Below, in pieces: positions 39,978 through 43,223 of a DNA stretch of 43,394 nucleotides. The position numbers and the translations under genes are program-made. The first letter of the stretch is position 1; each line of letters begins with the position of its first letter. The notes under the pieces are model-generated. The model was not told the DNA's origin and did no database searches. It saw only the letters and a program-made list of their open reading frames with translations. This DNA comes from a bacterium (lineage in GTDB: Bacteria; Hinthialibacterota; Hinthialibacteria; Hinthialibacterales; Hinthialibacteraceae): assembly GCA_016125385.1 (NCBI GenBank), contig WGLV01000038.1, positions 1-43,394 of the forward strand, in the 5' to 3' direction.

Positions 39978-41645
39978 TCACATGAAAGCGAGGACGATAA
40001 ACTGCGCGCAGAGAATGCGCAACAGCATGGTCAGCGGATACACCGTCGCGTAAGAGGTCGCCGCGGCGTCTCCCGGCGCCAGCGCGTTGGCGAAAGCCAG
40101 CGCCGGCGGATCGGTCATGCTGCCGGCCAGCATACCGCATACGCTGAGATAATTCACATTGAAGAGCGCTTTGGCGATAAAACCCACCAGCATTAGCGGG
40201 ACGATGGTAATCAGCGCGCCATAGCCCATCCAGTACAGGCCGTCGCCATCCATCAGCGTCGGGATGAATTTTTCGCCCGCGCTCAGTCCCACACACGCCA
40301 GAAACAGCACGATGCCCACTTCACGCAGCATCAGGTTGGCGCTTTTCGGCATATACCACACCAGCGGTCCGACGCGGCCGATAATGCTCAACGCCATCGC
40401 GGCCAATAGCGGTCCACCCGCCAAGCCGAGGGTAAATGGCGCCGGCATACCCGGAACCGGGATCGGAATCGAGCCCAACAACACGCCCAGCGCAATCCCC
40501 AGAAAAATCGGGATCATGTTCGGATGATTCAGTTCCGCTTCCGAATCGCCCAGCGACCGCGCCGCGTCCGCCAGTGTTTCACTCTTTCCGACCAGCATCA
40601 GCGAGTCGCCGTATTTCAAGCGCGTTTCCGCCGACGGTACGAATTCCAGATCGAAACGGCGGATGCGCGTTACCGCCACGCCGAAGCGCTCTTCGAGATT
40701 AAGCGAGCTCAGCCTGCGGTTCACCAGATTCGCGTCAGAGACCAGAGCGCGCCGCGTGGTGATCGAACGGTCGATATCCTTGAAATCCACATTGCTGGGC
40801 GCGCCCACCACGCGATGGATCGCTTCCACGGCGTTTTTGGGCGCCACCAGGTAGATCACGTCATTCGGCGCCAATAAAGAATTGCCGTTGCCCACCGTCA
40901 CCATGCCTTCATGCATCATTCGCGATACCACGACCGGTGTATTCAGCGCTGAAGCCATCGCCTTCACCGGGCGGTGAAACAAGGATGGATTCTCAACGCG
41001 AACGCTGATCGGCGTCGGTTCGCTGCTTGCGGCGGCTCGTCCCGAATGCAATGCTTCCGCCTCATGTTCTGGTGAAATGTTGAACGCACGCCGGATCGCG
41101 ATCATCGTGATCAGAATTCCGATGATGCCGAACGGATACGCCACCGCGTATCCCACGCCCGGCAGCTTCACCAGTTCTTCCGAGGTTCCGGGCAAACTGC
41201 GCAACGCCTGTGTGGCCGCGCCGAGTGAAGGCGTGTTGGTGGTCGCTCCCGAAAACAGCCCAGCCGCGACGGGAATCTCCAACCCCGTGATTTTCGCAAT
41301 GGAGATCGCGATCGCCATTCCCATGAGAACGATGGTTCCCGCTAACAGGTTTAGCCGTAAACCATCTTTGCGTAACGACGGTAGAATGTTGGGGCCGACC
41401 TGAACGCCGATGGTATAGATGAACAGGATCAAACCGAATTCCTGCGCGAAATGACGAATCTCCGGGTTGATTCGCATATGGAAATGAGAAAAGAAGATGC
41501 CCGCGAATAACACGCCGGCGATGCCCAGCGAAATTCCCTTGATCCTGATGCGCCCCAGCGCGACGCCCACTGCGGTGACCATGCTGAGAACCATAACGGC
41601 CTGAGCGATCGAGTTGCCTGAGAAGAGTTCAGAAAACCAGTTCAT
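39978..41645 (-). CDS. AspT/YidE-family transporter with two RCK_C domains
   Basis: 555 aa from the ATG at 41645 (AGG 9 bases upstream). It has two membrane blocks. The first (about residues 1-190) has EFGLILFIYTIGVQVGPNILPSLRKDGL and GLFSGATTNTPSLGAATQAL. The second (about 380-555) has EVGIVLFLACVGLSAGEKFIPTL, CGMLAGSMTDPPALAFANAL and ATVYPLTMLLRIL. These are the repeated YidE/YbjL duplication halves. Between them two TrkA-C/RCK_C cytosolic modules (SLLAPNDVIYLVAP and RLKYGDSLMLVGK) probably sense a ligand. AspT relatives exchange aspartate for alanine; others are of unknown substrate, so the solute here is open. Terminated at 39722-39751. Confidence 0.9.
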   Translation of the reverse strand: MNWFSELFSGNSIAQAVMVLSMVTAVGVALGRIRIKGISLGIAGVLFAGIFFSHFHMRINPEIRHFAQEFGLILFIYTIGVQVGPNILPSLRKDGLRLNLLAGTIVLMGMAIAISIAKITGLEIPVAAGLFSGATTNTPSLGAATQALRSLPGTSEELVKLPGVGYAVAYPFGIIGILITMIAIRRAFNISPEHEAEALHSGRAAASSEPTPISVRVENPSLFHRPVKAMASALNTPVVVSRMMHEGMVTVGNGNSLLAPNDVIYLVAPKNAVEAIHRVVGAPSNVDFKDIDRSITTRRALVSDANLVNRRLSSLNLEERFGVAVTRIRRFDLEFVPSAETRLKYGDSLMLVGKSETLADAARSLGDSEAELNHPNMIPIFLGIALGVLLGSIPIPVPGMPAPFTLGLAGGPLLAAMALSIIGRVGPLVWYMPKSANLMLREVGIVLFLACVGLSAGEKFIPTLMDGDGLYWMGYGALITIVPLMLVGFIAKALFNVNYLSVCGMLAGSMTDPPALAFANALAPGDAAATSYATVYPLTMLLRILCAQFIVLAFM

Positions 41646-41934
41646 GATGATTAACCTGCTTTCAATCAGAAAAGAAACGATGATGAACGACAATTGAACG
41701 GGTTTAAATCACTTGGACTCAACAGCCCTGAGTGTACCGGGTGAATGGTTTCGAGGATCGGGAAGGGGCGGTCAGGCGGGTAACTGCGCAGACGGCGGAC
41801 ATGATGTTATTTAACCTCGCGATGAAGTAATATGTTACGTCTCATGAAATACGCAAACGCCGCGCCAATCAAAACAGAGATACGCAAGTTGGGACTTTTA
41901 TTATAGTTATATTTTTATCCAGCAATCAGCTCTG

Positions 41935-41976
41935 TTCGTCATCCCAATTTGGAATCTCATAATTGGAATTGACGAA
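41935..41976. repeat. Imperfect inverted repeat in AT-rich promoter region
   Basis: TTCGTCATCCCAATT (41935-41949) and AATTGGAATTGACGAA (41961-41976) pair with a 1-base bulge and one mismatch around an 11-base loop. The right arm contains TTGACG (41969-41974), followed after 18 bases by TATACA. It could be an operator overlapping a promoter, or a transcript hairpin. Confidence 0.45.
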
Positions 41977-42016
41977 GAAGAATGGAATAGTGTATACAAG
42001 TTTCATACAGATACAA

Positions 42017-42048
42017 TATAATGATTATTATCATGTTACTAATAATCA
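42017..42048 (+). promoter_or_regulatory. Perfect -10 hexamer followed by a perfect 9-bp inverted repeat
   Basis: TATAAT at 42017-42022 runs directly into TGATTATTA (42022-42030), a 9-base spacer, and TAATAATCA (42040-42048), a perfect inverted repeat. TGTATACA (41991-41998), an 8-base palindrome, lies where a -35 would be. It looks like a regulated promoter with an operator at the transcription start. The next gene downstream on this strand is the sigma factor at 42386. Confidence 0.45.
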
Positions 42049-42257
42049 AAGAGAGACTTGGAATGTCGAAGAAAACGTGATGCATTCCGCCCTGTTGATA
42101 TGACGGAGCGAGGGACTTTGATCCACAGAACCATCCCGATGGTTAAACAATTCGCCCGGATTGCTGGATTATGCCGGATATCGATCGAAGTTGTGTCAGT
42201 TGTGTCATTGGATCAGGTGCAGAACCGATCTGCCGAATTGACTGAAGCCTTATGACC

Positions 42258-42283
42258 GGAACCAGTTCTCGACTCCATACTGA
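42258..42283 (+). promoter_or_regulatory. Candidate ECF-type promoter upstream of the sigma gene
   Basis: GGAAC (42258-42262), 17 bases, CTGA (42280-42283). GGAAC is a common -35 core for ECF sigma factors, and self-activation is common in this class. No other ECF promoter in the window was found to compare it with, so support is weak. Confidence 0.2.
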
Positions 42284-42385
42284 ATTCAACAATTGGCGCC
42301 GTTTTCATCGAGTGAAATTTTGCTGGAGCGCTGAATCCGATACAATAAATGCGGCAAGATGGAAATCCAACGAATCCGGAGAATC

Positions 42386-42964
42386 ATGCCCCAACATACT
42401 CTGCCCGATCCCGATCAGTGGGTCGACCAGTTTGGCGACTTGCTGTACCGCTATGCGATTCACCACCTGCGGCGTTCCGACGCGGCGGAGGACGCCGTTC
42501 AGGAGACCTTCATCGCCGCACTGCGCGCCCGCGATTCGTTTCAGGGCCGCTCCTCTCCCCAGACATGGCTGGTGGGTATTCTCAAGAAAAAGATCTTCGA
42601 CGCGATGCGCAAACAATACCGCGAGCGTCCCGTTTCTGAACCGGTCGATGGCCTGCATGAAGCCTTTTCCGAGAACGCCTTCTTCAAATGGGGACACTGG
42701 GTCAATCCTCCCTCAGCGTGGAATTCACCCGAAAAAGCGCTGGAAGACGATGAGTTCTGGGTGACGCTCAACCAGTGCATGGAGGGCCTGACGCCGTCAA
42801 TGAGCGAGGCCTTCTCATTGCGTACGCTGGAAGATTGCCCTACGGAAGATATTTGTAATATTCTCAATATCAGCCCGACTAACCTTGGCGTATTACTCCA
42901 TCGCGCTCGGTTAAGGCTGAGGCAGTGTCTTGAAAACAACTGGTTTCAGCGAGGCGAAAGGTAA
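42386..42964 (+). CDS. ECF-type RNA polymerase sigma factor
   Basis: 192 aa from the ATG at 42386 (CCGGAG 5 bases upstream). Region 2: DQWVDQFGDLLYRYAIHHLRR, then AAEDAVQETFIAALRARDSF and TWLVGILKKKIFDAMRK. The linker has GHWVNPPSAWNSPEKALEDDEFW. Region 4 is LRTLEDCPTEDICNILNIS and LGVLLHRARLRLRQCLENNWF. This pattern, with the GHW...W linker and CLE..WF ending, matches the TIGR02943-type sigma-70 family. It directs polymerase to a small stress regulon. It is followed 4 bases later by the zinc-finger gene, its probable regulator. Confidence 0.92.
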   Translation: MPQHTLPDPDQWVDQFGDLLYRYAIHHLRRSDAAEDAVQETFIAALRARDSFQGRSSPQTWLVGILKKKIFDAMRKQYRERPVSEPVDGLHEAFSENAFFKWGHWVNPPSAWNSPEKALEDDEFWVTLNQCMEGLTPSMSEAFSLRTLEDCPTEDICNILNISPTNLGVLLHRARLRLRQCLENNWFQRGER

Positions 42965-42968
42965 AGGC

Positions 42969-43223
42969 ATGTTCTCCTGCAAAAAAGCGTCTCACCTCAT
43001 CTCTGCTTCGCTCGACCGCGGCCTCACCGCCGGAGAGCGCTTTTCGCTTCGCTTTCATCTGGCGATCTGCGGAATGTGCCGCAACTTCCGCAAACATGTC
43101 TACTTTCTTCACGATATGAAAGATCAGTGGCCCACAGCAGCCGATTCGCTTCACTCCGATGAAAGCCTCACCGATGAAGCGCGTGAACGAATCCAGAACG
43201 AAATTAACCGCACCGATCATTGA
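42969..43223 (+). CDS. Putative zinc-finger anti-sigma factor (zf-HC2)
   Basis: 84 aa from the ATG at 42969, four bases after the sigma stop; translation is probably coupled. The reading can be extended upstream to a TTG at 42930 that overlaps the sigma gene, but MFSCKKASHLISASLDRGLT is the usual family start. The zinc motif is FHLAICGMCRNF (H-x3-C-x2-C), with Cys4 a probable fourth ligand. There is no membrane segment, so this is a soluble, cytoplasmic type. Such proteins bind the neighbouring ECF sigma and release it on redox or metal change. The transcript ends at 43262-43284. Confidence 0.85.
   Translation: MFSCKKASHLISASLDRGLTAGERFSLRFHLAICGMCRNFRKHVYFLHDMKDQWPTAADSLHSDESLTDEARERIQNEINRTDH

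Follow-up and report, generated by a model that had tools for sequence, protein, structure and literature searches.

The closest described systems are those of Neisseria meningitidis and Haemophilus influenzae. In N. meningitidis, the gene of the ECF sigma factor sigmaE has that of a small zinc (ZAS) anti-sigma factor, MseR, directly 3' to it; in the passages cited here, the sigma operon is described as autoregulated and the anti-sigma gene as part of a six-gene operon (PMC2893595, PMC3240639). The sigmaE promoter is given there as GTMAGBWTT ... CGTCTAAH (PMC2893595). In H. influenzae, RpoE2 and its small zinc anti-sigma factor HrsE are placed in ECF group 13, and the cited passages describe a large gap upstream of rpoE2, only slight self-activation, and a dmt transporter and msrAB as neighbours (PMC7907618).

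The locus analysed here lies in a stretch of 43,394 nucleotides (hereafter the window), which is one whole contig of a 5.5-Mb, 77-contig genome; its nearest relatives among the genomes compared belong to the same family and to other genera. An AspT-type transporter gene and an ECF sigma gene diverge from a 740-nt gap (41646-42385), within which an AT-rich stretch is found at 41860-42060 (hereafter the island; Table 1). The sigma factor scored 180.6 bits against the NCBIfam model TIGR02943, above the cut-off of 162.2, and has an alternative possible start at 42359. The zinc anti-sigma factor, whose gene starts 4 nt after the sigma gene, scored 64.4 bits against NF052368 (NCBIfam cut-off 50), and its HLAICGMC fits the ZAS motif HxxxCxxC. 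Judged from families and gene order, the pair is of the Neisseria sigmaE/MseR kind, with the ECF sigma factor and the small zinc anti-sigma factor directly 3' to it in common. The window differs from the meningococcal system, with its autoregulated sigma operon and six-gene anti-sigma operon, in that the gap upstream of sigma lacks such a promoter. It shares the small zinc anti-sigma factor and the large upstream gap with H. influenzae, whereas the neighbour is an AspT-type transporter gene instead of dmt and msrAB. A direct repeat, GAAATACGCAA / GAGATACGCAA, stands at 41846-41856 and 41877-41887, 31 nt apart.

Table 1. Features of the divergent gap and its flanking genes, in window coordinates.
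Feature	Position	Strand	Remarks
AspT-type transporter gene	39978-41645	-	Pfam Asp-Al_Ex and TrkA_C
TATAAT, possible divergent -10 box	41900-41905	-	toward AspT-type transporter gene; in no 10/12 site
Gapped imperfect inverted repeat	41935-41976	strandless	13 pairs; between two possible divergent promoters
TTGACG	41969-41974		
8-bp palindrome TGTATACA	41991-41998		
Sigma70-like promoter candidate TATACA-18-TATAAT	41993-42022	+	10/12 matched
ATACA, three copies	41994, 42005, 42011		
TATAAT	42017-42022	+	
Perfect 9-bp inverted repeat, 9-nt gap	42022-42030 / 42040-42048	strandless	operator-like
Putative leader, ~357 nt	42029-42385	+	start placed 7 nt after TATAAT
ECF sigma factor gene, TIGR02943 (Sig70_famx1)	42386-42964	+	Pfam Sigma70_r2, Sigma70_r4_2; NCBIfam
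TGTAAT-N16-CGAC	42854-42879	+	within sigma codons (TGT AAT ... CCG ACT)
Zinc anti-sigma factor gene	42969-43223	+	zf-HC2; NF052368; ZAS motif HLAICGMC

The promoter class to be expected in the gap was approached through the relatives of the sigma gene. Six peptide patterns returned 80 loci, of which 25 (L032-L056, E 5e-37 or better) were taken as the family and the remaining 55 served as controls only. The upstream stretches of 29 sigma genes (the window's gene, two paralogues, the gene of genome G001 and those of the 25 loci) were compared, and in 7 of them a paired-word search turned up GTCG-N16-CTTACA, which reads TGTAAG-N16-CGAC on the opposite strand. The 25 family loci contain the pair TGTAAG/CG[AT]C 29 times at a spacing of 16 and 0-2 times at each spacing of 10-15 and 17-22; the 55 control loci (324 kb) do not contain it. 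The motif stands upstream of anti-sigma genes and of genes whose translations we read as MsrA/MsrB, thioredoxin-like and DUF3179-like. The relatives' TGTAAGG ... CGAC is close to the meningococcal promoter as quoted in the cited passage (PMC2893595). Judged by where it lies, by its constant spacing and by its likeness to the Neisseria consensus, TGTAAG-N16-CGAC seems to be a promoter of this sigma factor, and beside TIGR02943-type sigma genes it is a candidate regulon motif. TGTAAGG also occurs within a site listed for photosynthesis genes of Rhodobacter (PMC4344238). Among open-licence literature titles, none on TGTAAG-N16-CGAC or on a promoter inside this sigma gene was found.

This motif is absent from the whole gap of the window. 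The best score in the gap was 0.8, against a mean of 5.4 for the best scores of 100 single-base shuffles and 20.6-31.3 for the sites of the matrix, which was built from the matched sites themselves. Among the relatives, 24 loci had enough sequence (400 nt or more) upstream of sigma, and only 1 of them carried the motif there, within 400 nt and on the same strand. Another promoter class is thus expected in the gap on both counts: a vegetative promoter should lie somewhere upstream of sigma, and 41993-42022 is a candidate for it. Not every sigma factor of this kind has a vegetative promoter, since the sigmaE of N. meningitidis is reported to autoregulate its own transcription (PMC2893595).

Hexamers resembling TTGACA and TATAAT 16-18 bases apart were found at 41993-42022, where the promoter scan paired TATAAT with TATACA at 41993 over a spacer of 18. 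This is the sole 10/12 site in the window on either strand at these spacings. Since ten whole-window shuffles gave 0-5 such sites each, the number of sites (one) is not above chance, and at least one occurred in 9% of shuffled islands and in 13% of shuffled gaps. The candidate is therefore supported by its place and direction and not by number, and its status as the sole 10/12 site carries moderate weight. It resembles a bacterial sigma70-type promoter with an overlapping operator in its -10 box TATAAT, in its 10/12 match over both hexamers and in the palindrome covering the inferred start point, and is unlike a typical sigma70-type promoter in that the -35 box matches at only 4/6 positions and the spacer is 18. 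TTGACG and TATAAT, 42 bases apart, were rejected as one -35/-10 pair, the distance being too large. A weaker TACAAT at 42341-42346 would yield a short sigma leader and is a possible promoter. TATAAT on both strands, as observed here, occurred in 10% of island shuffles.

The original prediction had described an AT-rich island with nested repeats around a -10 box, and this description was borne out in part. The AT content is 67% in the island versus 44% across the window, and no other 100 bases of the window are as AT-rich as those from 41951 (74% AT). A list of the window's 15 AT-richest places, compared with the gene map, has 13 within or next to gaps between genes and 2 within genes. The predicted 8-base palindrome, the three ATACA copies and TATAAT were all located within 41991-42022, and the perfect 9-bp inverted repeat was located over the inferred start point, where it reaches from the final base of the -10 box to roughly +20. 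Chance levels were taken from dinucleotide shuffles of the 201-nt island. Any 8-bp palindrome was seen in 0.71 of the shuffles, TATAAT in 0.24, and a perfect 9-bp repeat with a loop of 3-20 in 0.0175; of the three, the perfect 9-bp repeat alone stands out against these shuffles. Across the 43 kb of the window there are 15 such repeat matches in 11 distinct places, and among them 42022-42048 has the AT-richest arms.

The imperfect 15-bp inverted repeat containing TTGACG, also predicted, stood in a modified form only. Its arms, TTCGTCATCCCAATT (41935-41949) and AATTGGAATTGACGAA (41961-41976), match at 10/15 positions when aligned without a gap, which was equalled by 96% of shuffled islands. The ungapped test undervalued the repeat: a gapped hairpin emerged from the fold, in which a one-base asymmetry allows the arms to give 13 pairs. 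The hairpin (41930-41985) has a folding energy of -16.4 kcal/mol and a z of -2.49, with 3 of 200 shuffles as good; a z of -2.49 is reached by about 3% of the 5,418 scan windows. The sliding fold scan gave z -3.26 at the hairpin, too weak to rank among the window's 25 strongest places (25th z -3.83). The half-site pattern of the repeat matched the genome 5 times, of which 2 were its own arms, versus 1 in the control. Several other identities were rejected: a replication origin (one one-mismatch DnaA box at 42119; 16 boxes in the window, 16.6 expected), a repeat element (41700-42380 matches the genome once, namely itself) and a tRNA (tRNA search). DNA comparison with plasmids and phages gave no match and so no sign of an origin from a mobile element.

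We judge it about equally likely to hold or to fail that the island is the promoter region of the divergent gap, with a vegetative promoter, the repeat as its operator and a leader of ~357 nt. The vegetative (sigma70-like) promoter at 41993-42022 would start an RNA near 42029 that carries ~357 untranslated bases ahead of the ECF sigma gene and the anti-sigma gene after it. H. influenzae rpoE2, with its large upstream gap and slight self-activation, is a precedent (PMC7907618). A protein on 42022-42048 would block RNA polymerase, and the repeat may thus be a site at which a regulator could prevent the start. The AspT-type transporter gene may be served by another promoter, on the minus strand of this AT-rich stretch. 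The sigma genes of the relatives seem to be read mostly from promoters other than the sigma-type one, and a vegetative promoter in the island agrees with this.

It is worth noting that there is a less probable, though credible, interpretation: the elements of the island may be products of chance in an AT-rich gap, with the sigma gene read from elsewhere (for example, from TACAAT at 42341-42346) and the repeat bound by nothing. The frequency of 8-bp palindromes and of TATAAT in the shuffles, and a number of promoter-like sites not above them, agree with this interpretation. So does the repeat itself: no conservation was seen in the DNA comparison with 40 other genomes, and no second exact copy with a gap of 5-13 was found in the 5.5-Mb genome and none in 14 other genomes. 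Without a second exact copy, an operator has no regulon support. Among the 29 sequences compared for a shared operator, the island palindrome was in 0 of the 28 other sigma upstream stretches. Against chance, however, a 9-bp repeat reached by 1.75% of local shuffles coincides with the best promoter-like site, in a stretch that contains the AT-richest 100 bases of the window. That the repeat is a Fur/PerR-type box, with the operon under iron or peroxide control, is very improbable. Scanned with box sequences that we take to be those of PerR and Fur, the AT-rich DNA here gave 12/14 positions both for a PerR-type box, ATATAATGATTATTA (42016-42030), and for a Fur 7-1-7 box, TAATGATTATTATCA (42019-42033). 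With up to 3 mismatches the window holds 4 PerR-type matches versus 0.42 expected and 5 Fur-type matches versus 0.95 expected, 3 of each in this gap; AT-rich DNA, however, readily yields such matches. PerR genes are often divergent to rubrerythrin-like genes, and the one Fur-family gene found in the genome (L118 2190-3395) is divergent to a gene whose product we read as rubrerythrin-like. The gap of that Fur-family gene, however, contains neither box pattern within 3 mismatches; its locus has one Fur-type match, ~0.9 kb beyond the gap, with 0.1 expected. A 19-base Fur box with up to 3 mismatches matched the genome once, outside the island; the island's own 17 bases, with up to 2 mismatches, matched nowhere else in the genome; and a 12/14 box match was present in 0 of the 28 other sigma upstream stretches. 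Both the gap of the Fur-family gene and the scans of the genome weaken the reading as a Fur/PerR box.

The original prediction had also left open whether the promoter drives a small RNA or a long leader of the sigma gene, as no ORF follows for more than 300 bases. The last point was confirmed, in that no family-supported ORF precedes 42386 (possible start 42359), and 0 of 6 small frames tested before sigma exceeded the Pfam cut-off. The leader fits, the promoter-like site facing the sigma gene, while the small RNA did not find support. A small regulatory RNA from 42030-42380 would agree with a promoter-like site followed by no supported ORF, but we regard it as very improbable. There is no terminator-like site in 41600-42450, and the fold of 42029-42385 shows no excess structure (z 0.20; -0.08, 0.67 and 1.16 for three parts of the stretch). 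A search with Rfam 15 over 41500-42500 with E up to 5 gave nothing above the gathering threshold; the two sub-threshold snoRNA matches are both outside the stretch. No DNA likeness of the stretch outside the sigma gene was seen in 40 other genomes, 13 of them from the same class (up to 8 candidates scored per genome), and none in plasmids and phages. The only DNA match in the 40 genomes was in one genome and covers 57 bases of the sigma gene. The nearest relative found belongs to another genus and has 51% sigma identity, so that the missing DNA conservation, including that of the island repeats, for which conservation in relatives had been proposed as a check, has little power. The leader contains a tandem 9-mer, AGTTGTGTC, twice at 42189-42206. 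On the minus strand, a frame of 42 aa (41957-42085) could encode a small membrane protein expressed from the island, which we consider most improbable. The frame has a hydrophobic middle and a Shine-Dalgarno-like AGGGCGGA right before its ATG; such a hydrophobic look, however, is common to any AT-rich frame, no Pfam match above the cut-off was obtained, and no relative was found in 14 other genomes.

While the relatives seldom have the sigma-type promoter before sigma, they often have it before anti-sigma, and frequently within the sigma codons. The exact motif precedes anti-sigma, at +411 to +888 from the start of the sigma match, in 14 of the 25 loci; it lies within the sigma coding sequence in 8 of these and past the sigma stop codon in 6, all from Verrucomicrobia. 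The 8 include L047, in which the sigma frame stops right behind the site, short of the end of the protein match, so that this gene may be broken or misread. An exact TGTAAG-N16-CG[AT]C is missing from 9 of the 25 loci. In four of these (L042, L048, L049 and L050) CGAA replaces CGAC. In L033 and L051, TGT AAG is present, but CG[AT]C or CGAA is missing at the right place.

The place of the motif within the sigma genes allowed an analysis of codon choice. Fifteen of 26 sigma genes (that of G001 and those of the 25 loci) have Cys-Lys at the motif place, and in 15/15 it is coded by TGT AAG. Some of the 25 loci are close kin, so that the p-value obtained, in which all count as independent, is too small. 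The window's gene and the two paralogues were left to a separate comparison, in which paralogue 2 was not used. Elsewhere in these genes the shares of TGT and AAG were 0.237 and 0.421. Cys-Lys elsewhere was coded by TGT AAG in 3/23 cases in the same loci and in 10/69 in the control loci, counted in all six reading frames over open frames no shorter than 150 aa, some of them not real genes, after removal of the site by pattern. None of the six locus-finding peptide patterns covers the Cys-Lys place. When CGAA is counted, 13 of the 15 genes have the site, which starts 71-119 nt before the anti-sigma ATG, chosen automatically as the in-frame ATG that lies farthest upstream within 60 codons of the zinc motif. 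The 15/15 use of TGT AAG suggests that an anti-sigma promoter is embedded in the sigma coding sequence of the relatives. In the window, TGTAAT-N16-CGAC stands at 42854-42879, 115 nt before the anti-sigma start. Its -35 element ends with T and not G, and its score of 15.1 is under that of every matrix site; it would be a weak form of the promoter-like motif conserved in the relatives. From this weaker match at a conserved place, the anti-sigma gene of the window may have a sigma-type promoter as well.

Tentatively, and with slightly less than even confidence, we propose that supply and feedback are split at this locus: sigma would be made from the vegetative promoter of the island, and anti-sigma from a sigma-dependent promoter in the region-4 codons (42854-42879), a dual-use stretch that, by record titles, is found in several phyla. 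The island itself may be an ordinary promoter region, which matters mainly for annotating the start of the sigma operon, and the embedded promoter may be the more telling control element. If the proposal is true, this is a compact negative-feedback design that can be read from codon choice alone, and it offers a regulon motif that can be tested for sigma factors of this methionine-sulfoxide-repair kind, which occur in many little-studied bacteria.

Loci L036, L037, L039, L040, L053, L056, L052 and L112 carry the motif before the msr-like and similar genes named above and before other genes beside the sigma family. In the window's genome, exact TGTAAG-N16-CGAC occurs 4 times versus 17 for a reversed-pattern control, which counts against a large regulon there. 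One of the 4 sites (L121 1501) precedes by 143 nt a gene whose product shares 48% identity with a G001 protein that has a spondin domain. In G001, the gene of that protein directly follows the sigma/anti-sigma pair, and the stretch separating it from the pair contains an exact site (L113 4037); the two G001 sites score 17.6 and 16.9 by the matrix. The gene in the window's genome is thus a possible target of the window's sigma factor.
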